In this document: positions 2,048 through 63,890 of the stretch, one piece after another | Layout of the letters: each line of letters starts with the position of its first letter | Position numbering within the stretch: position 1 is the first letter of the stretch | NCBI GenBank assembly: GCA_028287185.1 | Contig: JAQBQD010000083.1 | Span: forward strand, 1-64,000 | DNA: 64,000 nt | Reading direction: 5' to 3' | From: Gemmatimonadota bacterium | Lineage (GTDB): Bacteria > Gemmatimonadota > Gemmatimonadetes > Longimicrobiales > Longimicrobiaceae | Program-made: the position numbers and the translations under genes | Notes under the pieces: generated by a model | What the model was told of the DNA's origin: nothing | The model's database searches: none | What the model saw: the letters and a program-made list of their open reading frames with translations, nothing else

Positions 2048-3328
2048 TCAGCGCGACGCCTCGCTTCCGCCGACCAGTCCACCGTCTGATCGCCCGCCCG
2101 CCACCTCCACCGGCCCATCCTCCAGCGCAGACAGCAGCGCGCCGGGCAGCCGCCAGCCGGGATCGCGCTCGGCGGCGCCTTCCGCGAGAGCGCGGGCCAG
2201 GGGGCGGTCGCCCGATGCGGCGGCCACGTGGGCGCATCCCAGCCAGCATGCGGCATCCTCTCCGTCGGCCTCCAGCCCCGCGCGGAAGTGCGCCAGCGCG
2301 GCGGACAGGTCCCCGGCCGCGAGGGCGCAGCATCCCAGCTTGTAGGCGCGCTTCTCCGCCGCCAGGTACAGGTCGCCCGGCAGCCACTCGCGCGGCTCGC
2401 CGCCGTCCAGGGCCGACCCGACGCCGGCGTACGCTTCCGCCGCGCGGGCGTAGTCGCCGGCCGCGTACAGGATCTCGCCGCGCAGGTAGGCGGCGAGGGA
2501 CTGGAGCGGGAACACCTTGAGGCTCCAGTCGAGATACGAGAGCCCCTCCGCGTGCCGCCCCAGCTCGTTGCAGAGCGCGCCCAGCATCGCCAGGGCGGAG
2601 GCGCGCATGGGCGCCGCGCAGCGCACGGCGTCCGCGATGGCGAGGAAGCCGGCCTCCGCGTCGGCGTGGCGGCCCAGGTACCACAGCGTCTTCGCGCGGT
2701 AGTAGGCGGCCCAGAAGTCCCCCGGGTCGCGTGCCGTCTCGCGCTCCAGCAGGCGCAGGTAGCGGCCCTGCTTTGCGCGCAGCACCTCGTCCGGCCGGCC
2801 GCTCACCAGGTGGGCGATGCGGACGTGCGGCGCGCGCGCGATGGAGAAGCCGGCGGCCAGGATGGTGTCGCCCGGCCGCTCGTGCACGGCGCCCACGTAG
2901 CGGATGCCCGGGTGCCGGCGGAACAGGCGCACGATGCCCACGGGATAGCGGTCCGTGCGCCCCGTGGACGCGTGCGCCACCACGTCGTGCCGCTCGACGA
3001 GGAACCCGCCGACCTCCGCCGGGACGTCCGCCAGCAGCGCGGCGAGCGCGTCCGGCGTGACCAGGCGCTCGTCGGCGTCCAGGCACAAGATCCAGTCCCC
3101 CGCCGCGGCGTCGATGCCGGCGTTCCTCGCCGCGGCGTAGTCGTCCGTCCAGGCGCGGTGGATGACGACGCACCCCGCGTCCCGCGCGATGCGCACGGTG
3201 GAATCGATCGATCCCGTGTCCACCACCACGACCTCCGCCGCCACGCCCCGCACCGAGTTCAGGCACGCGGGCAGGAACGCCTCCTCGTCGCGGACGATGA
3301 GGCACACGGAGATGCGGGTTGGGGTCAC
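2048..3328 (-). CDS. Family 2 glycosyltransferase with C-terminal TPR repeats
   Basis: 426 residues from a GTG start. The N-terminus ISVCLIVRDEEAFLPACL, followed by VVVDTGSIDST, is the nucleotide-sugar-binding half of a GT-A fold. LCLDADERL at about residues 80-88 supplies the DXD metal/sugar-nucleotide motif. The C-terminal half (about 190-400) is a run of helical TPR-like repeats (DFWAAYYRAKTLWYLGRHAD, then AAEAYAGVGSALDGG and similar). This layout (GT2 plus TPR) is known from SunS-like and related protein or glycan glycosyltransferases; the acceptor is unknown. A terminator-like hairpin lies just upstream, so it is probably its own transcription unit. Confidence 0.85.
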   Translation of the reverse strand: MTPTRISVCLIVRDEEAFLPACLNSVRGVAAEVVVVDTGSIDSTVRIARDAGCVVIHRAWTDDYAAARNAGIDAAAGDWILCLDADERLVTPDALAALLADVPAEVGGFLVERHDVVAHASTGRTDRYPVGIVRLFRRHPGIRYVGAVHERPGDTILAAGFSIARAPHVRIAHLVSGRPDEVLRAKQGRYLRLLERETARDPGDFWAAYYRAKTLWYLGRHADAEAGFLAIADAVRCAAPMRASALAMLGALCNELGRHAEGLSYLDWSLKVFPLQSLAAYLRGEILYAAGDYARAAEAYAGVGSALDGGEPREWLPGDLYLAAEKRAYKLGCCALAAGDLSAALAHFRAGLEADGEDAACWLGCAHVAAASGDRPLARALAEGAAERDPGWRLPGALLSALEDGPVEVAGGRSDGGLVGGSEASR

Positions 3329-24534: not shown

Positions 24535-24720
24535 ATGGACAGGAAGCTGAAACTGGACGTGGAGACGCTGGAGGTGTCGACGTTCGATGCGGGCGACGCG
24601 AGCGGCGTGCAGGGAACCGTGCACGCCAACGGCGCCGACGCGATCCCCGTGACGCGCACCAACTGTCTCACCACGCCGTGCTGCCCCTACACGGTGACGT
24701 GCCCGACCGCCGCAGCCTGA
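24535..24720 (+). CDS. Lanthipeptide-like (pinensin-type) RiPP precursor
   Basis: 61 residues from ATG 24535, with GAGGTG upstream. The N-terminal leader KLKLDVETLEVSTFDAG and the GxVQGTVHANG segment match the leader style of pinensin-type class I lanthipeptides known from Bacteroidota and relatives. The C-terminal core TNCLTTPCCPYTVTCPT is rich in Cys and Thr, the residues joined into lanthionine-type rings. A second precursor with the same leader lies at 52457-52747. No LanB/LanC, protease or transporter that obviously belongs to it is nearby; the ABC transporter at 24905-29386 is of another type. Modification is therefore inferred. Confidence 0.7.
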   Translation: MDRKLKLDVETLEVSTFDAGDASGVQGTVHANGADAIPVTRTNCLTTPCCPYTVTCPTAAA

Positions 24721-49015: not shown

Positions 49016-49090
49016 TCCGACGACGAGTTGGTCTGCCTCACCGTGGACCGGAAGGGCATGCGAGGGGTGGTGCGACCGCTCGCGGCCTGA
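49016..49090 (+). pseudogene. C-terminal gene remnant, copy 1 (SDDELVCLTV type)
   Basis: The last 24 codons before a TGA read SDDELVCLTVDRKGMRGVVR and PLAA. A closely similar stretch (SDDELVCLTVYRKGAREVVR then RLAA) ends at 53505, and a weaker one lies before 58773. Upstream in-frame sequence does not resemble the other copies, so these look like left-over 3' ends of one gene family. All are followed by the same kind of hairpin. Confidence 0.5.
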
Positions 49091-49195
49091 GGCGGGCCGA
49101 GGACAACAGAAGGCGGCCGCAGGCAGGGACACGATCACCTGCGACTGTCGGTGTGATTGGACAGCCCTACGCATTGGCGCGGGCGGCAGCCCGTG

Positions 49196-51794: not shown

Positions 51795-51818
51795 CGTGCA
51801 TTCGTCGTGGGAGAACCC

Positions 51819-51918
51819 GCCTAGCGACACAAGAGTCAGGGATACGGGGCCGGCGCGCAAGCTTGTCGTCGGTCGGAAGCATGAACGGCCCCGCATCGGC
51901 TGCCGCCGATTGTTCGGC
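51819..51918 (-). mobile_element. attC-like site 1 (degenerate cores)
   Basis: 100-bp palindromic element. Plus-strand ends GCCTAGC and GTTCGGC, inner arms ACGGGGCC ... GGCCCCG. Belongs to the same family as the sites at 54380, 55133, 56570, 57217, 57888, 58822 and 63749. Leftmost recognisable site of the array. Confidence 0.65.
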
Positions 51919-52456
51919 CGCACCCGCGGGGAATGTCAGTCGGTTTCTCGTAATTTGCTCGCGAGCTGACGTAGCTCTCGTACACGCTCCCCTGGCTCGC
52001 GCGCCTGTGCTTCAGCCATTTCGGCGATCATCGATTGCCAGTGAGCGGGCGGGGGTCGCCCGCGGCCCCAGAAGAGCCACCGGCGCGGTCGCGCGCAACG
52101 AGAGCGCGAACGAAGCAGCCGCCCAGCAGGTAGAGCGTTCGCATGGAACCATGGGGAAGAAACGAAGGCGTGCCGCTGCCCTAGCCCGGGCCGCGGCACG
52201 CCGTCCCGTCCTCCGCACCGCCGGAACCCAGCCCGTGGCACGGTGGATCGGGTCGTCTACGACGCGTTCAGCACCCCTGCGCCGCGGCTCCTGGACCCGC
52301 GCGGCCCGGCTTGCAGGTGAGGTGATCCAGCCCGAAGCGCTCGTGCAGCGGCCCGTCTACGTCCGCCAGGATCTCGCCGGAGGCGCGGCGCTCGTCGCGG
52401 CCGCCCACCAGCGTGGCGGTTCCGGGTGCAGCCAGGCGCCCCTACGGCCGCATCAT
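51919..52456. other. Debris region upstream of the lipoprotein cassette
   Basis: No intact gene. The minus strand near 51950-52030 reads MIAEMAEAQAREPGERVREL then RQLASKLRETD, which looks like a real protein C-terminus without its front. 52268-52430 is a cation-efflux fragment (listed separately). Confidence 0.4.
52268..52430 (-). pseudogene. C-terminal fragment of a cation diffusion facilitator, copy 1
   Basis: Minus-strand reading RASGEILADVDGPLHERFGL then DHLTCKPGR. This resembles the cytoplasmic end of CDF (CzcD-like) transporters, where LHERFGI-H-T is typical. No upstream transporter domain is present. A second, similar fragment lies at 53067-53234. Confidence 0.45.
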
Positions 52457-52747
52457 CTAGCACGTGCAGGGACTCGCGATCGCCGAAACGACCCGGCTCG
52501 CGGTGTTCGTGTTTATCACCGGACAGTTCCACGTTTCGGCACAGCAGTAGGTCGGGCCGATGCAGGTCCCGACGGTGTAGCCCCCACCTCCCCCGCCTCC
52601 GCCACCTCCCCCCTCCCAGTCGATGAACGGGTCCTGGTAGAGGGGTTCCATGAGATGGGCGCCTACCGTTCCGCGCCGTTTCGGCGCCGGAAGGGCCTCG
52701 AACGATTCCACGTGCAGCATCTCAACGTCCAGCTTCAGCTTGCGCAT
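52457..52747 (-). CDS. Lanthipeptide-like (pinensin-type) RiPP precursor with glycine run
   Basis: 96 residues from ATG 52747, with AAGGAG 5 nt upstream. Leader RKLKLDVEMLHVESFEALPA and KRRGTVGAH closely match the leader of the peptide at 24535 (KLKLDVETLEVSTFDAG, GTVHANG). A run of 11 glycines then leads to a Cys/Thr-rich core (YTVGTCIGPTYCCAETWNC ... ASPCTC) with six Cys. This fits class I lanthipeptide precursors of the pinensin style; rings and bioactivity are inferred. No maturation genes nearby, so both precursors probably rely on enzymes elsewhere in the genome. Confidence 0.7.
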   Translation of the reverse strand: MRKLKLDVEMLHVESFEALPAPKRRGTVGAHLMEPLYQDPFIDWEGGGGGGGGGGGYTVGTCIGPTYCCAETWNCPVINTNTASRVVSAIASPCTC

Positions 52748-53066
52748 GGGCACTCCTTCGGACCAAGGGGAAAGGTTGGTTAACGCCTGCTCGAACCTGC
52801 ACTTCCGTCAGCGGGCGAGGCGAAGAGTGGCGGGAGCAGCAGCCCTGCGCCACGCTCTTTCCGTGAGTGGCGCCGCAACGGGGGCGAGCGGTATCAAACG
52901 GCGGCCGAATGGTCGGAAGAACGCCCGCCGCTCGACAGCTTCCGCTGACGGGTCAGTGACGCTCGCCTCGCGGCGGCACGGTGGCGAAGAGCCGGATCGA
53001 GGATGAACGGCCGTGCTGTTTGGGTAGAAAGAACCGCGGCGTGACCGCACCGCGACGAAGTCTTGA

Positions 53067-53234
53067 TCACTTCGGTTGCCAGACGTGATTCCTCGACTCA
53101 GCACCCAGTGCGGCGCAGTCGAGCTTCTGGAAGCCGCGGAGCTCGATCTCCACGGTCAGGCGGCGCAAGTCGAAGCGCTCGTGCAGCAGCCGGTGCACAT
53201 CGGAGCGGATCTCACCGGAGGCGCGGTGCTGAGG
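53067..53234 (-). pseudogene. C-terminal fragment of a cation diffusion facilitator, copy 2
   Basis: Minus-strand reading HRASGEIRSDVHRLLHERFD, then LRRLTVEIELRGFQKLDC. LHERF-x-LRRLTVEIE matches the C-terminal metal-binding domain of CDF efflux proteins. It has a stop codon but no membrane domain. Paralogous to the fragment at 52268-52430. Confidence 0.5.
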
Positions 53235-53246
53235 CCGGGATGAACC

Positions 53247-53278
53247 ACGGGCGCGGAGGTCACGACCTCCGCGCCCGT
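53247..53278. terminator. Perfect 15-bp hairpin
   Basis: ACGGGCGCGGAGGTC, two bases, then GACCTCCGCGCCCGT. Upstream of the cation-efflux fragment on its strand; probably a left-over terminator. Confidence 0.55.
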
Positions 53279-53408
53279 TCGATTCCCCTCCCGTCGTCCT
53301 CTTCTCAGCATTTCCTTCACCGCAGCGGTCGCAGCCAGCGCGACGGTCACCACGGCGGCCGCACCACGCGGAGCGCGAATGATCTGGCCCATCATCGAGC
53401 AGAAGCAC

Positions 53409-53505
53409 AGCCGCTGGCGAGATCCACGATTCGGACGACGAGCTGGTGTGCCTCACCGTCTACCGGAAGGGTGCGCGAGAGGTGGTGCGGCGCCTCGCCG
53501 CCTGA
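53409..53505 (+). pseudogene. C-terminal gene remnant, copy 2 (SDDELVCLTV type)
   Basis: The plus strand ends with SDDELVCLTVYRKGAREVVR, RLAA and TGA, nearly the same as at 49016-49090. It is followed at 53521-53564 by a hairpin (GGCAGCCGCGGG ... CCCTGCGGCTGCC), and 12 bp later by an attC core. Family of the parent gene unknown. Confidence 0.5.
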
Positions 53506-53576
53506 GCGGGTCAGGATGGAACAACACGGCAGCCGCGGGACGCGCTCCCTGCGGCTGCCGCGATGTTTGGTCAGCG

Positions 53577-53670
53577 GCCTAACGCTCGAGTTCGGGCGCG
53601 TGGCGGCAGAGTTGGAGCAGCTGCCGTGGGGACGCTGCGCCGCCACGGCAGCTGCAACGATTCGTTAGGC
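53577..53670 (-). mobile_element. attC-like site 2
   Basis: 94 bp bounded by GCCTAAC (53577) and GTTAGGC (53670), both perfect matches to the RYYYAAC/GTTRRRY core consensus. Inner arms GTTGGAGCAGCTGCCG and CGGCAGCTGCAAC pair. The interior differs from the common 100-bp family. Confidence 0.7.
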
Positions 53671-53820
53671 ACCGCGCGCGCGCCGCTCTCGCATGCCCTG
53701 CCATCGCTCCTGGATGCTCTTGACCCCCGCCTATCCGAGGTGTACTCTGCATCACAAAGTGCTTGTCGTTCTATCGTCCGCACGCGGCAAGCGCGTCCGA
53801 TTGAGCGTCGGGAGGTAGTC

Positions 53821-54309
53821 ATGAAGAAGTGGGGGCGACGCATCCGCGCGGCAATCGGGATGGGCCTCATCTGGGGAGCGGCATGGTTTGGTGCGGGGCT
53901 CCTGCTGGCGCGGGTGCCCGGTTTCTACTCCGACCTTCCGTTTGCCCTGCTGTTTGCTCCGCTCGGATTCGTTGCCGGCATCATATTCTCCGGGACCCTC
54001 ATGGTTATCGGCGGCCGTCGCGGGTTTGATCGCATGTCGATTTCGCGCTTCGCGGGGTTGGGCGCCGTGAGCGGCCTTCTGCTGTCCGGGACCTTCGTCG
54101 TGGGCGCGGCCCTTCGAGGGGGCGCCTTGTGGGGAGAGTTCCTGGTGTTCGGCCCTCCCCTCGCCATGGCGAGCGCGGTCTGCGCCGCTGGTTCGCTGGC
54201 CGTAGCCAGACGGGCTGACCGGCGAGAACTTCCCGGCGACAGTGGGCATCCGGCGGAGGTCGAAATTACCGAGGACGAAAAGCGGGAACTGATCGGACGC
54301 GGTGACTGA
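53821..54309 (+). CDS. Small membrane protein, cassette-borne, opposite strand to its neighbours
   Basis: 162 residues from ATG 53821, preceded by GGGAGG. Four hydrophobic helices: IGMGLIWGAAWFGAGLLLA, FALLFAPLGFVAGIIFSG, RFAGLGAVSGLLLSGTFVVG and FGPPLAMASAVCAAGSLAVA. A charged tail follows (VEITEDEKRELIGRGD). No family recognised. It sits between attC-like sites at 53577 and 54380. It is the only plus-strand gene in the array, so within its cassette it is inverted and needs its own promoter. Confidence 0.75.
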   Translation: MKKWGRRIRAAIGMGLIWGAAWFGAGLLLARVPGFYSDLPFALLFAPLGFVAGIIFSGTLMVIGGRRGFDRMSISRFAGLGAVSGLLLSGTFVVGAALRGGALWGEFLVFGPPLAMASAVCAAGSLAVARRADRRELPGDSGHPAEVEITEDEKRELIGRGD

Positions 54310-54379
54310 CAGGTCCGCGTGGCTACAGCCCGCCGCTTCGGAGGACGGCGCTCATCCAGATATGGATGGTGGCAGGTGC

Positions 54380-54479
54380 GCCTAACGGACCAAGGGTCAG
54401 GGGTGCGGGGCCGGCACGCAAGCCTCTCGTCTGGCGAAAGCATGGATGGCCCCGCATCCCCTGCAGCCGATTGTTAGGC
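54380..54479 (-). mobile_element. attC-like site 3 (100-bp family)
   Basis: Bounded by GCCTAAC (54380) and GTTAGGC (54479). Inner arms GGGGTGCGGGGCC and GGCCCCGCATCCCC pair. Very similar to sites at 55133, 56570, 57217, 57888, 58822 and 63749. Confidence 0.8.
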
Positions 54480-54652
54480 GGCGGCTGACCGCCGTGCCTG
54501 GCTCATCAACCGCGAGAGTACCGGCCACAATAGCTCGTCGCCGGGCCGAGCGCGTCGGGACTTGGTCCAGTGGCGTCTAACGAGTGTAGCTGCATCCGCA
54601 TTGCAGCGAAGCAGCCATGTCGGCTGGGAGTGCTAGTCGGACGGCGTCGCAC

Positions 54653-54856
54653 TCAGTCATCCCAGATTGCACAGACGCCTCCAGCGATCATAGATGCCAA
54701 GCCGCCACCGCCGCCAAGTAGCCACAAAATGCGCCAAGCATAAGGCGGAAGGTGCAAGCCTGTGAGCCACTGCGTAACGAGAGTGAGCAAGGACAGGCCG
54801 ACGGTTAGCAGCCAAGCCGTACCACCGAGCCGAAAGAACAATTCGCTTTGCTTCAT
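54653..54856 (-). CDS. Two-helix small membrane protein (cassette gene)
   Basis: 67 residues from ATG 54856 (MKQSELFFRLGGTAWLLTVG). Two hydrophobic helices (WLLTVGLSLLTLVTQWLTGL; ILWLLGGGGGLASMIAGGV) joined by HLPPYAW. Its GC content is visibly lower than the chromosome. Lies between attC-like sites 54380 and 54900 in the expected cassette orientation, 3' end towards the former. Unknown function. Confidence 0.55.
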   Translation of the reverse strand: MKQSELFFRLGGTAWLLTVGLSLLTLVTQWLTGLHLPPYAWRILWLLGGGGGLASMIAGGVCAIWDD

Positions 54857-54899
54857 CTCTTGCCCCTATCTGCGTTTAATATATGTGAAGCCCAACGAC

Positions 54900-55024
54900 A
54901 GAAGGTCCGGGGGTGCGGGGCGGCCAAATACTCGGCAGCTGCGGAGAGGTCACCTCCGACTGTCGCCATGGGTGCGAGCAGACCGCCACGCCGCATCTGC
55001 GGCCGCCGAAGCGCGTCGAACCAT
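54900..55024 (-). mobile_element. Degenerate attC-like site with inserted hairpin
   Basis: Starts GCCCAACGACAGAAGGTCCG then GGGGTGCGGGGCGG as in the 100-bp family. The middle is replaced by a hairpin-type sequence (CGGCAGCTGCGGAGAGG ... CACCTCCGACTGTCGCC), and the right core is not recognisable. Probably inactive. Confidence 0.4.
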
Positions 55025-55132
55025 GGCGCGGCGGTGGCTTGCCTACAGCGTGGATCCGTCGGCTATGGGGGTACCGCGCACGGGAGCCTGTCGCCACACC
55101 GCGTGCGCCGCGCCGGGGCCTGTTCCGGCGGC

Positions 55133-55231
55133 GCCTAACGACACAAGGGTCAGGGGTGCGGGGCCGGCGGGCAAGCCTCTTCTCGGCGAAAGCATGGACG
55201 GCCCCACATCCCCTGCAGCCGCTTGTTAGGC
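55133..55231 (-). mobile_element. attC-like site 4 (100-bp family)
   Basis: Bounded by GCCTAAC (55133) and GTTAGGC (55231), with the same inner arms as site 3. Confidence 0.8.
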
Positions 55232-55265
55232 CGCGACTGCACGGGCGTCAAGCGGCTGAACGGCG

Positions 55266-55816
55266 TCAGTAGAACAACGCAGCCCAAGGGCGAAGCACCT
55301 GCCACATCGATGTCGGCGTGAACACACCTAGGCTCGTTCGTCGGCCAAGATGTGCGGCATTGCGCGGTAGCCGGTTTTCAAACGTAAGGAAACTGTCGCA
55401 CCCAAGGAGGATTGCGTCCTTGAGGAGCAACCGGTCGCCGCCTCCCAAATACCCGAACTCCTTACCGTCCAACAGACGCACCACCTCAGGATTGCCATAG
55501 TCGTAGTCTGACTCCTCGATGCACACCTCCCAATGATCGAGGACGTCGTAAGCCCAACGTAAATACGCCTTGTCGTTCTTTCGCCCGACTTCGGCGAGAC
55601 TGTTCGGCGAGAGTGCAAACTGGAAGTGCGCGCTCGTTCACGTGCAAGATGTCGCGGAGCGCCTCCAAGTTGGCCATCCCCTGTGGGTTCTGCTAGATCC
55701 TGTCCGACTCGTCAACTGGCTCGTTTTCGTAGAGAAACCCGCCGTAGTGGAGAAGGGCTGGAGGATCGTAGAATCTAGAAAACCCACTGAGGGATTTCTT
55801 CAAAACGACTCGACAT
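55266..55816 (-). pseudogene. Decayed PIN-like gene (cassette)
   Basis: A single protein can be pieced together from several frames: MSSRFEEIPQWVF, then LDSTILQP, then LLHYGGFLYENEPVDESDRI, a TAG stop, then QNPQGMANLEALRDILHVNE, then HFQFALSPNSLAEVGRKND. The last part stays open to the natural stop, with GGGDRLLLKDAILLGCDSFL and a C-terminal LRPWAALFY. LDST plus the later CDSFLTFENR suggests a PIN-like nuclease fold. At least three frame changes and one stop make it non-functional unless the sequence contains errors. It lies correctly between attC sites 55133 and 55843. Confidence 0.6.
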
Positions 55817-55842
55817 AGGAGGACCGCGGGGAAGCTGTTGCG

Positions 55843-55906
55843 GCCCAACGCTCCGGTTCAGCGGCTGGCCGCGCAGCGGACCGTCCGCTGCAACCCGTTG
55901 TTAGGC
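55843..55906 (-). mobile_element. attC-like site 5 (short, 64 bp)
   Basis: GCCCAAC (55843) to GTTAGGC (55906), with inner GGTTCAGCGG ... CCGCTGCAACC arms. The size and layout are those of short attC sites in mobile integrons. Confidence 0.8.
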
Positions 55907-55911
55907 CGCCC

Positions 55912-56541
55912 TCACTGACGCACATAGCGCAGGTGTGTGGCGGCTGGACCATCGAGAACCCTGTCGATGCGAAACTGCGGCGCGGGCTCGCGCAGGTTCT
56001 CGAAGAGACGCCGCCCGCCGCCGAACAACACGGGTGCCAGGGCGATCTCCAGCTCGTCGATGACACTCAGGTTCAGGTACTGCTGGATCACATCCGCTCC
56101 ACCCGCGATACGAATATCACGACTGCCTGCGGATTCCCGAGCCAACTCCAGGGCATGCTCCGGCCCGTCATTGATGAAGTAAAAGGTCGTCCCGCCGGGG
56201 CGCGCCCAGGGTTCGCGTTTCTCGTGGGTAAGAACGTATACCGGTGTGTGAAACGGAGCCTCCTCTGGCCAGGCCTGCTCGCCCTGGTCGAACATTCGCT
56301 TGCCCATGATGTTGGCACCGATGCGCTCCGTGGTGCTGCGAACCAGGTCGTTGACCGGGCCGGTCTCTCCCCCGGGTCCGAACTTGAGGTTCTCGCGGAA
56401 GTACCGTTGGTTGATGATCCAGCCCATCAGCGCACCCCACTTGGCGCCCCAGTTCTTGTACTCAGGCTTGTCCATGGACATTCCTTCCGGTGCCATGTAG
56501 CCATCGAGGCTAAGTCCAATGCTGACGAATACTTTGCTCAT
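55912..56541 (-). CDS. RibD C-terminal/dihydrofolate-reductase-like protein
   Basis: 209 residues from ATG 56541 with GAGGAAA upstream. SKVFVSIGLSLDGYMAPEG at the N-terminus, IGANIMGKRMFDQGEQAWPE, PVYVLTHEKREPWARPGGTT, GSRDIRIAGGADVIQQYLN and ELEIALAPVLFGGGRRLFE are the family motifs of the DHFR-like reductases (YwjB/YyaP type) common in cassettes and stress loci. Reduces a pterin- or flavin-related substrate, unproven. The stop lies 6 bp from attC 55843-55906, as expected for a gene cassette. Confidence 0.9.
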   Translation of the reverse strand: MSKVFVSIGLSLDGYMAPEGMSMDKPEYKNWGAKWGALMGWIINQRYFRENLKFGPGGETGPVNDLVRSTTERIGANIMGKRMFDQGEQAWPEEAPFHTPVYVLTHEKREPWARPGGTTFYFINDGPEHALELARESAGSRDIRIAGGADVIQQYLNLSVIDELEIALAPVLFGGGRRLFENLREPAPQFRIDRVLDGPAATHLRYVRQ

Positions 56542-56569
56542 GATTTTCCTCTCGCATGTTCCGATGTCG

Positions 56570-56675
56570 GCCTGACGACACAAGGGTCAGGGGTGCGGGG
56601 CCGGCGCGCAAGACTGTCGTTCAGCCGAAAACATGGACGGCCCCGCATCCCCCCCCCGGGAGCCGATTGTTAGGC
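56570..56675 (-). mobile_element. attC-like site 6 (100-bp family, 106 bp)
   Basis: GCCTGAC (56570) to GTTAGGC (56675). The family arms are present; a run of nine C near 56650 lengthens it. Confidence 0.8.
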
Positions 56676-56699
56676 CGCGGGTGCATCGAGCGTGGCGCC

Positions 56700-57167
56700 C
56701 TACTCGACCAGGAGATAGTACACATCCGTCCGCGGCTGGGCGTCCCCCGGACTCCAGTGCCCGTAAACCTCCCAGCGCGGGCCCGCGAGCACGTGTGCGT
56801 GGGCGCGGCACCAGGCGACCACCGCCGCGTGCGTTTCGCCGAGCCGGCCATAGTCGCCCCAGTGCGTCGCCGTGGCTACCCGCCCTGCGGGGAGTTCGGC
56901 GTATCGCACCGGACCCGCCGCGGGGAACGGCGTGGCAACTCCGACACCGAAATCGACCTCCACCTCGCCGTCCGAACCGTCGCGGTAGAGGAAGACGTTC
57001 TGGCCGTCGAGGGCGACGGCGCCGTCGCGCGCCGCCGTATAGACCTGATCAAGGTACGCCGCGAAGGCTGCGGGGACGCGCTCCGCCGCAAGCCGGGCGT
57101 GCACGGCGGCGATGCCTCGCGGCCGCGCCCTCTGCACCGATACCGTATGACTCGGATCCACTGCCAT
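56700..57167 (-). CDS. GyrI-like small-molecule-binding protein
   Basis: 155 residues from ATG 57167, with GAGAGG 4 nt upstream. A single SOUL/GyrI-like (AraC effector-binding) domain: RARPRGIAAVHARL, VEVDFGVGVATPF, YAELPAGRVATATHWGDYGR, WEVYGHWSPG and TDVYYLLVE at the end. Such stand-alone domains bind drugs or metabolites and sometimes hydrolyse them. Its stop lies 25 bp from attC 56570-56675. It is GC-rich like the chromosome, so the cassette may have been captured locally. Confidence 0.85.
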   Translation of the reverse strand: MAVDPSHTVSVQRARPRGIAAVHARLAAERVPAAFAAYLDQVYTAARDGAVALDGQNVFLYRDGSDGEVEVDFGVGVATPFPAAGPVRYAELPAGRVATATHWGDYGRLGETHAAVVAWCRAHAHVLAGPRWEVYGHWSPGDAQPRTDVYYLLVE

Positions 57168-57216
57168 GGTGCCTCTCGGGCCGGATCACGGTGAGGCTGC
57201 CGCGAAGTTTCCAGCG

Positions 57217-57315
57217 GCCGAACGGATCAAGGGTCAGGGGGTGCGGGGCCGCACGCAAGACTTTCGTCCGCGAAAACCTGGACGGCCCCGCATCCTCTGC
57301 AGCCGATTGTTCGGC
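57217..57315 (-). mobile_element. attC-like site 7 (100-bp family)
   Basis: GCCGAAC (57217) to GTTCGGC (57315). The two cores vary in concert, which keeps them complementary. Family inner arms present. Confidence 0.75.
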
Positions 57316-57401
57316 CGTCACCGCGCCGGAGTCGACCAGCTCCACCACCGAGGTTGTCTATGGCTCTGCCAACCCGGGTCTCGCTCGCTACCCGGCACGC
57401 G

Positions 57402-57836
57402 TTAGCCGAGCTGCTCTGCAAGCGCGACGATGATGCCCTCAGGCCCGCGGATGTAGGCTAGCCGGTACGTATCCTCGTACTGCATCTCGCCAATGATCTC
57501 GGCCCCGTTGGCACGCAAGCGCGCGACGATGTCGTCGATGCCGTCGACGGCGAACATGATGCGACGGATGCCCAGCGTGTTCACCGGCGCGTCCACGGGC
57601 CCAAACCTGATCGCGTCGGGCGTGTGGAACTTGTCCAGCTCAATGCCCTGCCCATCGGGAGTCCGCATCATCGCGAGGGTGGCCCGGACATCCTTGAGCC
57701 CGATCAGGTCCCCGACCAAAGGCCCATCGACGGTCGACTCGCCCTCGAGCTTGAGGCCCAGTTCGATGAAGAACGCCTTGACGGCTTCGAGATCGTCGAC
57801 AACGATGAGGACGTTGTCCATCCGTTTAAGCGTCAT
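57402..57836 (-). CDS. Glyoxalase/VOC-family protein
   Basis: 144 residues from ATG 57836, with AGAAGG just upstream; a second ATG at 57857 is less likely. One VOC module pair: MDNVLIVVDDLEAVKAFFIE, DGQGIELDKFHTP, IRRIMFAVDGIDDIVARLRA and YRLAYIRGPEGIIVALAEQL, the last containing a metal-ligand Glu position. Substrates of this fold include lactoylglutathione, antibiotics and aromatic diols; none can be assigned. It lies in cassette orientation ahead of attC 57217-57315. Confidence 0.88.
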   Translation of the reverse strand: MTLKRMDNVLIVVDDLEAVKAFFIELGLKLEGESTVDGPLVGDLIGLKDVRATLAMMRTPDGQGIELDKFHTPDAIRFGPVDAPVNTLGIRRIMFAVDGIDDIVARLRANGAEIIGEMQYEDTYRLAYIRGPEGIIVALAEQLG

Positions 57837-57887
57837 ATCCTTCTTCTCTCGTTTCATTGGTGATGCCCCGTACTTGCCGCACGTGGC

Positions 57888-57987
57888 GTAGAACGACACA
57901 TGGGTCAGGGGTGCGGGCCCGGCGCGCAAGACTTTCGTCCCGGCAGAACTTGGCCGGCCCCGCATCCCCTGCAGCCGATTGTTAGGC
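57888..57987 (-). mobile_element. attC-like site 8 (100-bp family)
   Basis: GTAGAAC (57888; degenerate) to GTTAGGC (57987). Family inner arms GGGGTGCGGGCCC ... GGCCCCGCATCCCC. Confidence 0.75.
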
Positions 57988-58030
57988 CGCGTCTGGCGTT
58001 TCAGCCGTTGCGTACGCTGCCGTAGGTACC

Positions 58031-58336
58031 TCAAGGGATCAGCTCCTCTGGGTCCTGCGCTTGGTGCCGAATGTGGAGCACATGGACGGTATCCTCACGG
58101 ATCGCAAAGAGGATCTTGTACGAATCGAAGAGCCGCTGACGGATCGTTCCGACGAAGAAACGGTCTTCGTACGCCCGTCCGCACTGCTGGGCCGATCCGG
58201 CAAGATCCCGTATGGCGGCTCGAACCCCGTAGTACCACTGGTCGGGGTACTCCGAACCAGGGTTCCGCGAGCGAAGGTTCTGGTAGTGCTGCCGGAGATT
58301 GTTCTTGGCCTCGATCTCGATCCTGACGCGGAACAC
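58031..58336 (-). CDS. ParE/RelE-family toxin
   Basis: 101 residues from a GTG that shares one base with the antitoxin stop. RelE-fold pattern: RVRIEIEAKNNLRQHYQNLR, then DLAGSAQQCGRAYEDRFFVG, then RQRLFDSYKILFAIREDTVH and VLHIRHQAQDP. RLFDSYKILFAI-x-VHVLHIRH is typical of ParE-type gyrase poisons and RelE-like RNases; the target cannot be chosen from sequence. It forms a toxin-antitoxin cassette with the Phd-like gene and would stabilise the array against loss. Confidence 0.88.
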   Translation of the reverse strand: MFRVRIEIEAKNNLRQHYQNLRSRNPGSEYPDQWYYGVRAAIRDLAGSAQQCGRAYEDRFFVGTIRQRLFDSYKILFAIREDTVHVLHIRHQAQDPEELIP

Positions 58337-58629
58337 TACGCCTGCTCCGCGATCCCGAGTTCACGTTGGAGAGAGGCGAACGCATCCTCGGCATCTTCGC
58401 CGGTCCCGTCGTACATCCCCTGCAAGCCGCGCTGGATGCCCACGATTGCCGCGGCATTGGCTGCTAGATCGAGGAGCCTCTGGTACGCGTCCGCGTGCTG
58501 CACGACGAGTTCGGCCTGCCCGTGAACGGTCAGAACCTGCGGACGGCCGGTCGCCTTCAGATGCTCCACGTACGCCCGCGCGTTCCGCTGGAAGTCGGAA
58601 AGCGAGTGAATCTCGTTCAGGTTAATCAT
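58336..58629 (-). CDS. Phd/YefM-family antitoxin
   Basis: 97 residues from ATG 58629. The N-terminal DNA-binding fold is INLNEIHSLSDFQRNARAYV, then EHLKATGRPQVLTVHGQAEL and VVQHADAYQRLLDLAA. The C-terminal toxin-neutralising tail is acidic (GTGEDAEDAFASLQREL). Precedes the toxin by a 1-bp overlap and probably represses the operon. In-frame residues before the ATG look unrelated. Confidence 0.88.
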   Translation of the reverse strand: MINLNEIHSLSDFQRNARAYVEHLKATGRPQVLTVHGQAELVVQHADAYQRLLDLAANAAAIVGIQRGLQGMYDGTGEDAEDAFASLQRELGIAEQA

Positions 58630-58726
58630 GTGAGCCCCAGGGGTTTCATGAAATATCATGTTCAACCTACCGTGTTCGGCCTGGCTCGTCAACGCCTGAA
58701 CTGAGTCCGACCCGGTTCGGGTCAAG

Positions 58727-58816
58727 ACGATGAACGCGCGCGCGGTGGTACAGCGGCGCCGCCTTGAAACACACGCAAGCCGCGGGTAGGATCACCTGCG
58801 GCTGCCGCGAATCTTG
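58727..58816 (+). repeat. Third copy of the remnant-plus-hairpin module
   Basis: GCGCGGTGGTACAGCGGCG then CCGCCTTGA resembles the gene end at 53485-53505. It is followed by a hairpin (AAGCCGCGGGTAGG, ATCACCTGCGGCTGCCGCGA) matching those at 49112-49150 and 53521-53564. It ends 6 bp before the attC-like core at 58822, just as copy 2 abuts the attC at 53577. Confidence 0.45.
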
Positions 58817-58821
58817 TCCAG

Positions 58822-58920
58822 CAGTAACCGACAAGGGTCAGGGGTGCGGGGCCGACGCGCAAGGCTCTCGGCCCGCCGAAAAGATGGACGGCCTCGCATC
58901 CCCCGCGGCCGATTTTCGGC
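58822..58920 (-). mobile_element. attC-like site 9 (100-bp family, degenerate cores)
   Basis: CAGTAAC (58822) to TTTCGGC (58920). The inner arms of the family are kept; the right core has lost its GTT. Confidence 0.65.
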
Positions 58921-58938
58921 GCGGTGCGCGAATCCTGG

Positions 58939-59400
58939 TCAGTCCAGCCGCAGCAGGAACTCTTCGACCTCGTCTCCGGAACTCTCGACCGTGGACTCCC
59001 TCGCCTCGATGAAGAAGCCAACCTTCTCGAGCACGCGGCGGGAGGCCGTATGGTCCACAGTCACCCGGGCAAAGAGCGGCCGTTCGTGGACCTCGGCGAG
59101 GAATTCTCGTAGCCCGGCGGTCGCGATGCCCTTCCCCCAGTGCTCCCGCCCGTACCAGTATGCGACCTCGCGCAGACCCTCCCGCACGAAGCTGCCGACG
59201 TACCCGACCACGGCGCTCTCGCTCTCGACGGTGCGCAGGATCCCGAGAGGATCCGCGAGAATCCTCGCCCAGTGGGTGTCGAACTCGGCTCGGTCGCGTG
59301 ACGTGAGCGTGCCCACGCGAAGAGCGACCGGATCACACTGGTGCTCGAAGAACGTGTCGAGATCCGAGGCCGCAACAGGTCGCAGTCCGATGCCGGTCAT
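58939..59400 (-). CDS. GNAT-family N-acetyltransferase
   Basis: 153 residues from ATG 59400. MTGIGLRPVAASDLDTFFEH at the N-terminus, AVVGYVGSF, then the acetyl-CoA loop in YWYGREHWGKGIATAGLREF (motif A, Q/RxxGxG/A-like) and ARVTVDHTASRRVLEKVGFF (motif B). Resembles the RimJ/RimL-like branch. Substrate unknown. Its stop is 18 bp from attC 58822-58920, as expected for a cassette. Confidence 0.9.
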   Translation of the reverse strand: MTGIGLRPVAASDLDTFFEHQCDPVALRVGTLTSRDRAEFDTHWARILADPLGILRTVESESAVVGYVGSFVREGLREVAYWYGREHWGKGIATAGLREFLAEVHERPLFARVTVDHTASRRVLEKVGFFIEARESTVESSGDEVEEFLLRLD

Positions 59401-59447
59401 AGAGCGTCGGGGAGCTGACTCGCGGTGTCGCAGAGACGGCCCTCGCC

Positions 59448-59506
59448 GCCTAGCGCCTGAATTAAGCCGAGCCGCGAAGCGGCTTCGGCTTGATGAATTG
59501 TCGGGC
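59448..59506 (-). mobile_element. attC-like site 10: classic 60-bp aadA-type stem
   Basis: On the minus strand the element runs GCCCGAC, AATTCATCAAGCCGA, AGCCGCTTCGCGGCT, CGGCTTAATTCAGGC, GCTAGGC. The CAAGCCG ... CGCTTCGCGG ... CGGCTTAATTCAG stem is that of the attC sites of aadA-type resistance cassettes in class 1 integrons (recalled, not searched). Both outer cores carry substitutions. It lies 32 bp past the YCII gene in cassette orientation. Confidence 0.85.
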
Positions 59507-59538
59507 CGCACACTTCCCGCGCCATTTCAGTGTCGCCC

Positions 59539-59880
59539 TCAGGACTGTGGGTCGAACCCGAAGACGCGCAGTTCCTGGTCGCACCGACAGGCCTTGGCGA
59601 TACGCGCCGCCCACGCGACGGCCTCGTCGCGCGAAGGCAGTTCCAACACGGTGAAGCCGCCGTCGAGCGTGGGCGCCCAAGGATAGCCTCCCATTGCAAC
59701 CGTGCCGTCAGCCGAGACGAGCACGGGCGGTACGTCTTCGTCGATTCCGCCGCCGAAGACGTAAACACTGGCGGCTTTCGCCTCATCGATCACAGCGTGC
59801 GCGTCGCGGCCTACCGCTCCCAATTCGCCATCGGGCACAACCATTGCCGCGCTTGGAAAAGAGATCAGGTATTTGGCCAT
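59539..59880 (-). CDS. YCII-related protein
   Basis: 113 residues from ATG 59880 with an AGGAGGAG ribosome site. MAKYLISFPSAAMVVPDGEL, DEAKAASVYVFGGGIDEDVP, DGTVAMGGYPWAPTLDGGFT and VLELPSRDEAVAWAARIAKA match the YCII/DGPF ferredoxin-like fold, often partnered with sigma factors and stress genes in GC-rich bacteria. Chemistry unknown. Between attC sites 59448 and 59926 in the usual orientation. Confidence 0.85.
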   Translation of the reverse strand: MAKYLISFPSAAMVVPDGELGAVGRDAHAVIDEAKAASVYVFGGGIDEDVPPVLVSADGTVAMGGYPWAPTLDGGFTVLELPSRDEAVAWAARIAKACRCDQELRVFGFDPQS

Positions 59881-59925
59881 GGTGCTCCTCCTGGGAATTG
59901 ACGGCGGTCGTGAAGCGTGCGTGCG

Positions 59926-60029
59926 GCCTAACGACCGCGGTGTCAGTGGTGCGGAGCGACCACGCCGTAGCTCAGCCCCCACTCAGAAGTTGGCCAAGCT
60001 CCGCATCCACTGCACGCCTGCAGTTAGGC
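59926..60029 (-). mobile_element. attC-like site 11
   Basis: GCCTAAC (59926) to GTTAGGC (60029), perfect cores. Inner arms GTGGTGCGGAGC ... GCTCCGCATCCAC. Related to, but diverged from, the 100-bp family. Confidence 0.8.
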
Positions 60030-60050
60030 CGCTGCCCGCTGGTCCCCCGT

Positions 60051-60098
60051 TACTTCGGTCATTACCCTGTGTGCAACCCGCCGCACACGAAGTTAGGC
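60051..60098 (-). mobile_element. Short degenerate attC-like hairpin
   Basis: CGTTACTTCG ... CGAAGTTAGGC with an inner TGTGTGC ... GCACACG stem. Only the right core (GTTAGGC, 60092-60098) matches the consensus; the left one (GTTACTT-like) is altered. It overlaps the 3' end of the ABC-3C ATPase gene, so that gene's cassette may carry its own attC here. Confidence 0.4.
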
Positions 60099-61943
60099 GC
60101 CCGGAAAGAACCCATAGCGGCCCTGATGCGGGTTCTTAGTGAATACCGTCACATTTGCTCTGTCCAACACGGAATCCGGTGGGTGCTCGTTTTCAACAAT
60201 TATAAGTTGATTATCCTGTCGGAGCCCGAGCAGATAGCTATAGAACATCTCCTTCAAATCGGAGCCTCGCAGGTCATCTTCGTCGCCCTCCGGTTTCCAG
60301 TACGCTAGGAGCGGAGAATCGAGAACAACGAAGCCTGGATGCGGCAAGCTTCGTTCACGGCAGAACTCCATAAGCCCGATTTTCACTGCTGCATGTGTGA
60401 TCGCCCGAAGGCCCTTCCCAGTGCTACCTCGGTCTTTTCCTGCTATTTGGAAATCGCGCTTCGCCTCATCGAAGAACACCCGGGTGGCGTTCGGGAAATG
60501 CCACTCCTGCAAAATTCGCTCGACCGTTTGAGCGAACTCATTGAGCACAGTCTTGGATACCTGGGTTCTGGCACCGGAGGAGGTTGGTTCAACCTCAGCC
60601 TGCTCCGGGTCAAGATCGGCGCGGTGCGCGGTGAGCCTCTTCAGCCTTTCGACCTTATCGAGGATAGCCAGGATCTCAGCACGCTTCGACACGAGAACGT
60701 TGTAGGACGCTCGCTCGGAAAGAACCGCGGGGGAGGCAATGTCATTCAACTCCCGCTCAGACGCCTTGTACGCAGTGCGTGCATCATGTAGTCCGCTCAA
60801 CAAGCCCTGTCGCTCAACGGCAAGAGAATTAGTGGTATCCTCAAGTTCACGCTGCAGACGCGCGATCTTGACCATCTCAGCCTCAGCCGCTGTGACGATG
60901 GCTTCGGTGTTGCCCTCGCAATCCGTATCGAGATGCTGGTTGCCGGGCGCTGCTCCGCACAAGGGGCACGGCTGCTTTTCAAGGTGTACAAACAACGAGC
61001 CGGACTCGTGTATAGCAGCGAGCCTATCAAGATCAGTTTGATAGTGACGGTCGAGCAACCCAAATCGCTCGACGAGTTCATCGATCTCCGCAACTCTAGC
61101 AGCCGTGCTCCGTATCTCGGTTGCTGCTGCAGAGCGGCGCTCTAGAATGACATCTAGAGCTTTCTGTGTCGTCGCCAGTGCCTCATTCTGCTGTCGAATC
61201 GAGTTATTGAGACGGGCAAGCTGATCGTCTAGTTCTGCTTCCTCAGAACCTTTCTCATCCAGCTCCGCTTCCAAGTCGTCGATCATGTGATCAAGAAGCT
61301 CAATTTTTCCAGCGTCCTGTTCTCGGCGACCTGGCAGGGTTTCTGCTCCTACCAGCGCACTGTCGTCGACACCCGTGAGGAGAAGTTTGAAAGCGGCATA
61401 CTCCGACGTGGCGGTAGTGTATTGACCGGACAAAAATGGAGACCCTCGCCCTTGGATTTCCTCTTCATTAACAACACAAAGGCGCGCCATGTCTCGAAAG
61501 CTCAACGAGCGGGTTGCGCCGGCTAGGTTCCTTCGCAGAACCTTTGATGGAAGCCCTGCGAAGCTCAGCAAGACATGGGACAGCGTGTCCCGGTGGCTGG
61601 CATTGTGGCGCCACCTGAGCGTCTTCGGGGCTGCTTCGGGCAAAGCGCGCTCAAGCAGTTCCTCGTACGCCCTAAACTCGCCGCCTTCCACGCTACGGTC
61701 TAGGGTGAGTTGCCGTCCGTCATCGCTCTGAAGAGCGAGCCTAACCCGATCATAGCCGTGCCTCTCCGGTATGTCGCGGACCGGAGCCCCCTGGCCCAGC
61801 ATGAAGTCAATACTCTCCACGACGAAGGTTTTGCCCGTTTCAGAGGCTCCACAGATGACGTTCAGACCCGGCTCGAATGAGAGATCGGCAGGTGTCCGTT
61901 CCGGTCCGAAGTACGCGAGATATCGAAGAATGATACCGCTCAT
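60093..61943 (-). CDS. Rad50/SMC-like ATPase of an ABC-three-component (ABC-3C) conflict system
   Basis: 616 residues from ATG 61943 (MSGIILRYLAYFGPERTPAD). Walker A GASETGKT at 32-39. A long coiled coil from about 190 to 455 is interrupted by a zinc hook CPLCGAAPGN near 325. The C-terminal ATPase lobe has GKGLRAITHAAVKIGLMEFC and Walker B FVVLDSPLLAYWKP near 536. This is the ABC ATPase layout of the ABC-3C systems described by Aravind and co-workers. Its ATG overlaps the middle-component stop by 4 bp. Likely recognises invading DNA or its replication and activates the effector subunit. Lower GC than the chromosome. Confidence 0.85.
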   Translation of the reverse strand: MSGIILRYLAYFGPERTPADLSFEPGLNVICGASETGKTFVVESIDFMLGQGAPVRDIPERHGYDRVRLALQSDDGRQLTLDRSVEGGEFRAYEELLERALPEAAPKTLRWRHNASHRDTLSHVLLSFAGLPSKVLRRNLAGATRSLSFRDMARLCVVNEEEIQGRGSPFLSGQYTTATSEYAAFKLLLTGVDDSALVGAETLPGRREQDAGKIELLDHMIDDLEAELDEKGSEEAELDDQLARLNNSIRQQNEALATTQKALDVILERRSAAATEIRSTAARVAEIDELVERFGLLDRHYQTDLDRLAAIHESGSLFVHLEKQPCPLCGAAPGNQHLDTDCEGNTEAIVTAAEAEMVKIARLQRELEDTTNSLAVERQGLLSGLHDARTAYKASERELNDIASPAVLSERASYNVLVSKRAEILAILDKVERLKRLTAHRADLDPEQAEVEPTSSGARTQVSKTVLNEFAQTVERILQEWHFPNATRVFFDEAKRDFQIAGKDRGSTGKGLRAITHAAVKIGLMEFCRERSLPHPGFVVLDSPLLAYWKPEGDEDDLRGSDLKEMFYSYLLGLRQDNQLIIVENEHPPDSVLDRANVTVFTKNPHQGRYGFFPGA

Positions 61944-62449
61944 AGCGTTAGCTCTGCCTGCGTTCCGAACCCAACCGGCTGAAATTCGGTGGTCCACGAT
62001 TCGAACAAGTGTCTAATGATGGCATTCAGCTCGTCATCGGTTAGGATGTCGAACGTGGCCGCCACCCACTCGGCTCGATCCCGCAAGGCGACCATGTACG
62101 AAGACTTCACGTTATCGAGGAACGAAGCGGCCGAGTCATCAGCTCTGTATAGAAACCCACTAACGTGAACCTCCCGGTAGACAAGAGACCGACTCATCAT
62201 TAGGCGTAAACCGGACTCGATCAGCCCACGCCTGACGAGGAGTTCGCCAGAGCGAAGGGGCAACGGCGGATGAAGGCTGGGTGGCCCATCGGCATCCGCC
62301 GAATGAACGGCTAGGTAGTCGTACTGGACCAGCCTGCCCAAGTCATGCGCTCTTGGGTAACAAGCAATTAGAACTGTGAGCGTCCGAACTCCGGTCTCCA
62401 GAGCGCTGTTGAAGGGACCCACCAGTTTGTCGGTTACGGCTTCTTCCAT
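61940..62449 (-). CDS. ABC-3C middle component (MC2-like)
   Basis: 169 residues. VGPFNSALETGVRTLTVLIA, then CYPRAHDLGRLVQYDYLAVH, then PPSLHPPLPLRSGELLVRRG and LIESGLRLMMSRSLVYREVH match the small winged-helix middle component seen between ATPase and effector in ABC-3C operons. RLVQYDYLAVHS-D--GPPSLHPPLPLRSGE is its hallmark. Overlaps the effector gene by 16 bp and the ATPase gene by 4 bp, so all three are co-translated. Probably bridges the two partners or binds DNA. Confidence 0.82.
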   Translation of the reverse strand: MEEAVTDKLVGPFNSALETGVRTLTVLIACYPRAHDLGRLVQYDYLAVHSADADGPPSLHPPLPLRSGELLVRRGLIESGLRLMMSRSLVYREVHVSGFLYRADDSAASFLDNVKSSYMVALRDRAEWVAATFDILTDDELNAIIRHLFESWTTEFQPVGFGTQAELTL

Positions 62450-63549
62450 GTAAGCCTATCCTCGTTCGCGAGCTGGTGACAGATTCCTTGTTTGTCTGCG
62501 ATCTTCGTTACTCCGACGAGCGCGTTTCCACTCACGTCAAGTTGCCCAGCTGCCGTCACAGTGTTGCGAACGCGGGCCAGCGCGTCTGTATGAGGGCCCT
62601 CACAAATGTCGACTACGCCGTTATAGATGTCATCTCGTAGCGATTCATACGTCCGGGGCGGAGTTCGGTCACGCGCAAAGTTCCGCAAAGACTCTGCGCT
62701 GTAGAAGAGCACACGCTGTCTGTAATAATGACTCTCGAGTTCAGGATAGAGCGCCAAGGCCGTTCTATCGGATACGGTCGCTGCTACATGGTCCCCATAT
62801 GCGTCGAGCAACTTGCGGAGATAGAGACTTTCTACCTCAGTTGGCTCCGAGGGCGGGACGTCAGGCATTCCGCGCGGCGGGAGGCCGCCGCCAAAGCGAG
62901 GAGCGTAAAAAACGGTTTGGGCGTGCTGCTCGATCAATTCCACAGCGGATCGGTCATCGAAAATGGAGAACTCGAAGTCATCGAAATATGCCAGAAGTTC
63001 GCCTTTCAATGGGGCGGGAATCCCCGCTCCGATGGCCGGCCCACAATGGCTATCCCATTTCGCACGCACCTCCTTCTTGAACCGGATCGGATCCCTCAAG
63101 AACCGTCCAAGCATGATTCCGACGCCGAGCGGCGCAATGAACACGTGCCTCCTCGGGACCCGGCACCTTTGGTTGTAAGGTGGTGTTCGCTGAAACGAAT
63201 GGTAGATGATCTTCCCGATCTCTCCATACACGTCGCCAGGCGTCAGCGGGTGGTCGTAGTGCTTGCACTGGTAGCTGTCCCAGGGCTTGTCAAAGCCCTC
63301 CGCTTCCGTGAAGGCAACAACGTCCAGTCCTAAGTCGCCTGGGCCGGAGTAGCGTTTGATGGAATGGTAACTTCCACTAGCCTTGTGGAACGACAGCCAC
63401 TCTTCAGTGAAGCCCTCCCACTCCCCCGGTGACATTATCTGAAGGAGCCTTACTGCTGGCACCGGTATCCCTCCCGCAACCTGCGCAGCGCACGGCACTT
63501 CGGACGCTGCTGAGGGGGTTATCTCCGAAAGCGCAAGGGGTTCACTCAT
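62434..63549 (-). CDS. ABC-3C effector/C-terminal component with Mrr-like nuclease domain
   Basis: 371 residues from ATG 63549. Residues 40-175 look like a PD-(D/E)xK restriction-endonuclease fold: WEGFTEEWLSFHKASGSYHS, GPGDLGLDVVAF (Asp76) and DSYQCKHYDHPL (Q94-C-K96), which together give the D...QxK catalytic set of Mrr-type nucleases. Residues 200-371 form the ABC-3C C-terminal domain (LAYFDDFEFSIFDDRSAVEL; VTKIADKQGICHQLANEDRL). Predicted to cut DNA when the ATPase senses an intruder. First known gene of the operon. Confidence 0.8.
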   Translation of the reverse strand: MSEPLALSEITPSAASEVPCAAQVAGGIPVPAVRLLQIMSPGEWEGFTEEWLSFHKASGSYHSIKRYSGPGDLGLDVVAFTEAEGFDKPWDSYQCKHYDHPLTPGDVYGEIGKIIYHSFQRTPPYNQRCRVPRRHVFIAPLGVGIMLGRFLRDPIRFKKEVRAKWDSHCGPAIGAGIPAPLKGELLAYFDDFEFSIFDDRSAVELIEQHAQTVFYAPRFGGGLPPRGMPDVPPSEPTEVESLYLRKLLDAYGDHVAATVSDRTALALYPELESHYYRQRVLFYSAESLRNFARDRTPPRTYESLRDDIYNGVVDICEGPHTDALARVRNTVTAAGQLDVSGNALVGVTKIADKQGICHQLANEDRLTWKKP

Positions 63550-63712
63550 CGAGAATCAACTCTGGGCCGAATGTCGATTGGTTCCTCACCCCGTCCTCTC
63601 CTGACGATGATGGAGAAGCACTCTCGCCGAAGTCGTCACGAACTGTGGGGCGCTGCAACGCACCAATGATCGGCCCAAAGTAGCGCCCAAGAAGTCGAAT
63701 ATGCAAATGCAA
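63542..63712 (-). CDS. Possible small leader ORF of the ABC-3C operon
   Basis: 56 codons from TTG 63712 (or TTG 63706): LHLHIRLLGRYFGPIIGALQ, then RPTVRDDFGESASPSSSGED and QSTFGPELILDE. It ends inside the first codons of the effector gene (8-bp overlap). The composition is protein-like, unlike the stretch before it. No good ribosome site. It could be a translated leader, a small fourth component, or a chance open frame. Confidence 0.3.
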   Translation of the reverse strand: MHLHIRLLGRYFGPIIGALQRPTVRDDFGESASPSSSGEDGVRNQSTFGPELILDE

Positions 63713-63748
63713 GCCGGGGCTTTGCGTCCGGGAGAGGCTATTCCAGCG

Positions 63749-63846
63749 GCCTAACACAAGGGTCGGGGGTGTGGGGCGGGCGCGCAAGACTGTCGTCCGG
63801 CGAAAGGATGGACGGCCCCGCATCCCCCTGCAGCCGATTGTTAGGC
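63749..63846 (-). mobile_element. attC-like site 12 (100-bp family)
   Basis: GCCTAAC (63749) to GTTAGGC (63846), perfect cores and the family inner arms GGGGTGTGGGGCG ... GGCCCCGCATCCCC. Right-hand boundary of the ABC-3C cassette. Confidence 0.8.
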
Positions 63847-63890
63847 GGCGGGCGCGGCGACCCCTCTCCCTGCAGAGCGAGAATGCCTTG

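Follow-up and report, generated by a model that had tools for sequence, protein, structure and literature searches.

Pinensins are class I lanthipeptides from Chitinophaga pinensis, whose precursor lies in a single cluster together with LanC and whose pathway uses a LanB split on two polypeptides (PMC7268733). Prochlorosins belong to class II (LanM) and have Nif11-type leaders. In prochlorosins and synechococsins, one enzyme, ProcM or SyncM, serves many scattered precursors with a conserved leader and variable cores; 79 SyncA precursors are reported for SyncM (PMC10783134, PMC9872173). The accessible text of these two reports describes recombinases, integrases and transposases in the precursor neighbourhoods, and not integron cassettes. 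Sedentary chromosomal integrons have an array of attC sites on one strand, an intI-like gene at one end and cassettes that are common to different genomes. Integrons have already been reported in Gemmatimonadota (PMC8618304). A literature search, for which most subscription journals were out of range, returned no paper on RiPP precursors as integron cassettes and none on a pinensin-type expansion in Gemmatimonadota.

The locus analysed here resembles all three systems in part. It lies in a 64-kb stretch of DNA (the window) from a member of Gemmatimonadota, probably of the Longimicrobiaceae, and the source genome, G000, is a 6.04-Mb draft assembly that is 93.8% complete. Leader type and the split LanB with LanC are like those of the pinensins, but the bacterial family is different, and dozens to more than 150 precursors are dispersed over each genome instead of a single cluster. 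Many scattered precursors for one enzyme set, a conserved leader, variable cores and recombination-related genes nearby recall the prochlorosins and synechococsins, although the enzymes are of class I. The attC array is that of a sedentary chromosomal integron, except that intI is frameshifted and the cargo includes RiPP precursors.

A precursor gene with an eleven-glycine run

The following features define the gene and the peptide with which it was compared.

52457-52747, minus strand: candidate LanA precursor gene of an orphan class I-type lanthipeptide, 96 aa (ORF and translation, leader profile, Shine-Dalgarno)
52580-52612 (approximate), minus strand: run of 11 glycine codons, mixed GGG/GGA/GGT/GGC
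24535-24720, plus strand: sibling precursor, 61 aa, same leader type, different core with four Cys, no attC nearby

The reading frame runs from ATG at 52747 to TAG at 52457, exactly where the earlier note had placed a second RiPP precursor with an 11-glycine run and six Cys. The ATG, which is the family start, has an AAGGAG Shine-Dalgarno motif 5 nt ahead of it; translation from a GTG two codons earlier would yield 98 aa. The peptide consists of a leader (residues 1-28, MRKLKLDVEMLHVESFEALPAPKRRGTV), a linker, Gly11 and the core YTVGTCIGPTYCCAETWNCPVINTNTASRVVSAIASPCTC; its N-terminal part reads MRKLKLDVEMLHVESF...RGTV and is followed by the glycines and then by the Cys-bearing core. This core has six Cys, all of them C-terminal to the glycine run, and ten Ser/Thr, the residues that class I lanthipeptides need for lanthionine rings. 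RiPP precursor identity was borne out, and the type is that of a lanthipeptide. The exact peptide had no match in GTDB contigs or plasmids, and the leader had none as a PDB query. A Pfam match to Hormone_5 (E=0.015) was below the cut-off and was rejected as a coincidence of the Cys pattern.

The frame sits among gene relics and its poly-Gly run is unusual, as might be expected if it had arisen by chance or were a pseudogene in decay. However, the leader is intact and is scored by the leader profile of the family at E=2.3e-18, a Shine-Dalgarno motif is present, and six core Cys is the family median. It is therefore very improbable that the frame is meaningless.

Gly11 is the longest glycine run among 160 precursors examined in full; the next has eight glycines, in a sibling on contig C39 whose counterpart in genome G016 carries GGGGTGTGTGG. 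The peptide also has the largest distance between start and first Cys in this set (residue 62, compared with a median near 40). As the glycine codons are mixed, a single simple triplet expansion is a less likely origin. Gly11 follows a nearly invariant GTV motif, at which the leader probably ends, and with this position the run is likely to remain part of the released peptide. It is most likely a fast-changing, low-complexity linker in the released part. The earlier proposal that it acts as a spacer which helps the core towards an enzyme is possible.

A large family with one leader and unrelated cores

A search of G000 with the full-length peptide gave weak matches across the genome, confined to the leader. 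The recurring architecture is M-[RK]-K-L-x-L-D-x-[DE]-x-L-x-V-E-S-F-x-T ... R-G-T-V-x-[GA], followed by an unrelated Cys-rich core. A profile built from 14 leaders detected 42 loci on many contigs of G000 at a threshold of E<=1e-6. As 28 of them lie outside the profile set, the leader similarity is not a matter of chance. The leader had been described as common to this peptide and the one at 24.5 kb; the pairwise similarity of the two is weak (E=0.16), yet both score strongly in the profile. The claim of a completely different core also held, since no significant core match was found among about 160 siblings, save a TWNCP pentapeptide.

Within the same bacterial family, G005 has 66 precursors, G006 79, G015 145, and G016 and G018 at least 150 each, as counted in draft assemblies. 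None was found in other genomes of the family, nor in any of 20 genomes from other families of the order. Dense tandem arrays exist, with more than 20 precursors in 11.7 kb of one contig (L225). In the 160 precursors, the core has a median of six Cys (range 2-25), and Cys makes up 0.08% of leader residues compared with 15.7% after residue 30. A Shine-Dalgarno-like motif precedes 154 of the 160, compared with 13% of random positions. In 117 leaders, codon position 3 varies most and position 2 least. At L221:4239-5073, precursor cores open with at least six consecutive or near-consecutive Cys (CCCCCCPCCC). Homology among dispersed siblings stops at the start codon and leader and includes no attC, and no conserved mobile-element ends were found around them.

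Candidate modifying enzymes

The earlier note had suggested a test of modification by a trans-acting synthetase, and a likely enzyme cluster was found elsewhere in the genome, on contig C200.

C200: LanB glutamylation protein, PF04738, ORF of 1144 aa
C200: LanB elimination protein, PF14028, 323 aa
C200: LanC cyclase, PF05147
C200: ABC transporter
C200: putative HlyD-like protein, named from its sequence by eye
C200: putative subtilisin-like (S8-type) protease, named from its sequence by eye
C4, C7, C75 and C200:129253: LanM and LanKC-type loci of G000 (LanM on C4 and C7)

G000 therefore has both parts of LanB, LanC and precursors, the components of a class I lanthipeptide system. The C200 cluster is its one cluster of split LanB and LanC, with one PF14028 protein for 42 or more precursors, and G015 and G016 also have one PF14028 protein each. 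Two sibling precursors lie within about 3 kb of the C200 cluster, and the adjacency of LanB and precursors is repeated at G005:C234 and G006:C6 (LanB/LanC). PF14028 and precursors occur in the identical 10 of 29 genomes, and three genomes within one genus are without both; the chance of this co-occurrence is 1 in 2e7 if genomes are taken as independent, a figure that ignores phylogeny. The closest named relative of the LanB elimination protein is from a Gemmatimonadetes MAG (42%), which suggests Gemmatimonadota as the phylum of G000, and the next named ones are mostly from Bacteroidetes.

With E<=0.01 as threshold, 22 of 60 siblings match the NCBIfam leader model of the pinensins (NF038180, leader_pinensin), the best at 2.5e-6. 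The peptide at 52457-52747 is not matched even at E 0.01; the curated cut-off of the model is 24 bits, and siblings reach 19.7 bits.

The modifying enzyme is unproven because G000 also carries two LanM (DUF4135) and two LanKC-type (RamC/kinase-type) synthetases. These could modify the siblings, or the cores, which are rich enough in Cys, could form disulfides independently of LanB and LanC. However, siblings adjoin LanB/LanC, and the leader profile search listed none on the LanM contigs C4 and C7. The LanB elimination domain also occurs in exactly those genomes that have precursors, and the leader is similar to that of the class I pinensins. Modification by LanM or LanKC, or disulfide formation instead, is thus unlikely, and the best reading is a probable modification in trans by the C200 class I enzymes.

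With a probability of roughly 0.66 for the explanation as a whole, 52457-52747 would be an orphan class I (pinensin-like) lanthipeptide precursor gene from a large, dispersed, fast-evolving pool served by one enzyme set, and, by analogy, the system would follow a prochlorosin-like logic with class I enzymes. The leader (KLxLDxxxLxVESF) would be recognised by the single split LanB pair and LanC of C200. Ser and Thr of the core would be dehydrated and would then form lanthionine rings with Cys. Cleavage near the conserved GTV motif, for which the C200 subtilisin-like protease is a possible enzyme, would take off the leader, and the product may be exported by the C200 ABC transporter.

The attC array and the integrase remnant

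The precursor lies at one end of the following array.

51817-63848, minus strand (cassette sense): chromosomal integron array with 12 attC sites, at 51817, 53575, 54378, 55131, 55841, 56568, 57215, 57884, 58819, 59449 (short), 59924 and 63747
51817-51920, minus strand: distal attC at the end of the array, core boxes eroded to GCCGAAC / GCTAGGC (cassette strand), covariance model E=6.4e-21
53575-53672, minus strand: attC upstream of the precursor interval, core boxes intact, strong hairpin, covariance model E=1.3e-11, DNA fold z=-5.1

These two sites, which the earlier note had given as 51819 and 53577, flank the precursor; both belong to the eight window attC sites from which the covariance model was built. 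Homology and covariation were used because single-sequence DNA folding was uninformative for several sites; covariation of the hairpin pairs was above that of shuffles. Between 51817 and 63848 the model detects 11 sites, each of them on the minus strand, with those at 57884 and 58819 newly added, and elsewhere in G000 a few more on C150, C140 and C213. The twelfth site, a short attC of about 57 bp at about 59449-59505 (minus strand), was found by eye (GCCCGACAATTCATCAAG...GGCTTAATTCAGGCGCTAGGC). It is unlike the long local attC type and presumably resembles attC sites of other bacteria, which suggests a cassette of foreign origin. Rfam had no match in the window.

Beside the array, intI is present as broken fragments, namely intI-like pieces in different frames at C95:64723-65216, just past the window. 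The attC at 51817 is the last one on the side away from this remnant, so the precursor does lie at the array edge, as had been proposed. A second broken copy is at C140:1629-2300, and nothing in G000 scored above the TIGR02249 integron-integrase cut-off. In several relatives, intI-like sequence adjoins the array and is divergent from it.

Other genomes share cassettes with the window, with a DNA identity of 84-88%.

53712-54376: cassette recurring in G016
56592-57317: cassette recurring in G005
57391-57998: cassette recurring in G016
58831-59457: cassette recurring in G010

The homology between 58831-59457 and G010 starts exactly at the attC core (GGCGCTAGGC / GGCGTCAGGC), and the preceding attC sites are unrelated. 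Judged from the two sequences, this boundary is a classic cassette junction. The attC sites are those of a genuine chromosomal integron that has lost its integrase.

Precursors as cassettes in related genomes

In four arrays of relatives, a precursor is followed directly by an attC on the same strand.

L265 (G010), 2729-2890, minus strand: precursor, stop codon 90 bp before attC
L266 (G006): precursor ending 29 bp before attC, with a second precursor in the same attC-to-attC interval
L283 (G015): precursor with a triplicated 20-residue core, ending 105 bp before attC
L286 (G016): related triplicated-core precursor, ending 121 bp before attC

The L265 precursor cassette immediately precedes the exact attC-core junction of the 58831-59457 homologue. 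Several of the attC sites next to these precursors have eroded cores. With about 670 precursors and 118 attC sites in 59 Mb, 0.10 such arrangements would be expected by chance (P=4e-6). Four were seen, and together with the exact junction in L265 this indicates that precursors can be cassettes. Enrichment of precursors beyond random gene content was considered and rejected, since about 1.6 precursor cassettes are expected by gene share; integrons thus carry precursors without clear preference. Precursors near attC at G005:C527 were rejected as cassettes as they lie on the opposite strand, and those at G016:C83 and G015:C115 sit 1-2.4 kb past the last attC.

The earlier idea that RiPP precursors may themselves travel as cassettes therefore stands for four relatives' arrays and fails as a general rule: in G000, 52457-52747 alone of 42-46 precursors lies between attC sites. 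Likewise, a check of the flanks of homologous leaders found attC in L265, L266, L283 and L286 and not beside dispersed siblings.

Three tandem 20-residue repeats (VSGGGATQCGGVQTCGGGCQ) occur in two genomes at three places (L283:6179-6466, L286:2535-2822 and L286:5877-6161), and each of these triplicated-core precursors has the same terminator-like hairpin downstream and then an attC-like site. A reductase-like gene (MSKVxAIMSMSLDGYVAD..) lies at L286 2990-3620 and L283 6740-7330. It precedes the precursor in one of the two genomes and follows the precursor's attC in the other, as if the cassette order had been swapped.

The interval around the precursor

The interval 53575-51920 is a 1.66-kb mosaic of gene relics around the intact precursor.

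53389-53583: cassette-start segment, homologous DNA (75-84%) present in seven or more other integron loci, in most cases directly next to an attC
53154-53230, minus strand: relic of a putative CDF (cation diffusion facilitator) transporter C-terminus, copy 1, a 75% DNA repeat of copy 2
52266-52410, minus strand: relic of the putative CDF transporter C-terminus, copy 2, between precursor and attC, followed by about 350 bp to attC

The segment at 53389-53583 includes the tail of a small gene from the opposite strand (..SDDELVCLTVYRKGAREVVRRLAA*). This tail recurs at 49016-49150 and C213:11271-11418 and in many integron loci, also outside the array. Intact homologues of the CDF relics are present in L124, L126 and L130; the CDF identity would follow from these, which were themselves named from their sequence. 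Pfam gave no name for the relic ORFs around the precursor, and the covariance model scored no hidden attC within 53575-51920.

The precursor and the attC sites that flank it at 51817 and 53575 are all on the minus strand. The anatomy is not that of a compact cassette: the stop codon is 537 bp from the attC at 51817, with a CDF relic between. Because the gene is amid 1.66 kb of relics and 537 bp from this putative attC, it is doubtful whether it forms a clean cassette. The locus was absent from every tested relative, none of which is congeneric.

A chromosomal orphan gene could also have come to lie between attC sites by chance, the distal array having decayed and other recombination having brought the CDF relics and the precursor into it, with the integron playing no part. 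Other G000 precursors are not between attC sites, the ORF lies beside a 537-bp gap and between two CDF relics, homology of dispersed siblings is limited to start codon and leader with no attC, and the local intI is broken. With about 45 precursors in a 6-Mb genome, one or more would fall in a 12-kb array with a chance of about 9%. However, the first segment of the interval is one that adjoins attC sites in several further integrons, and siblings have a tight cassette anatomy in the arrays of four relatives. Placement by chance is therefore a serious alternative, at somewhat below even odds. The interval may instead be a distal cassette, composite or decayed, in which an intact precursor persists, and whether this copy truly travelled as a cassette is close to an even bet. 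If so, the precursor would have entered as a composite cassette or been caught in one.

Implications

In this bacterial family, integrons might shuffle and transfer lanthipeptide precursors, and a resident permissive LanB/LanC might modify any incoming core that bears the leader; we put this forward tentatively, as more doubtful than not. If true, new ring peptides would be gained by the capture of a single-gene cassette, without moving a biosynthetic cluster, and the peptide repertoire of a cell could be reshuffled by gene capture. Should a single permissive class I set serve from 40 to more than 150 precursors, the system would be to class I what the prochlorosins are to class II, and a large natural library of ring peptides. 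Precursors as integron cassettes tie the biosynthesis of a natural product to an established machinery of gene capture, and they would offer a testable route by which single cores move between strains.
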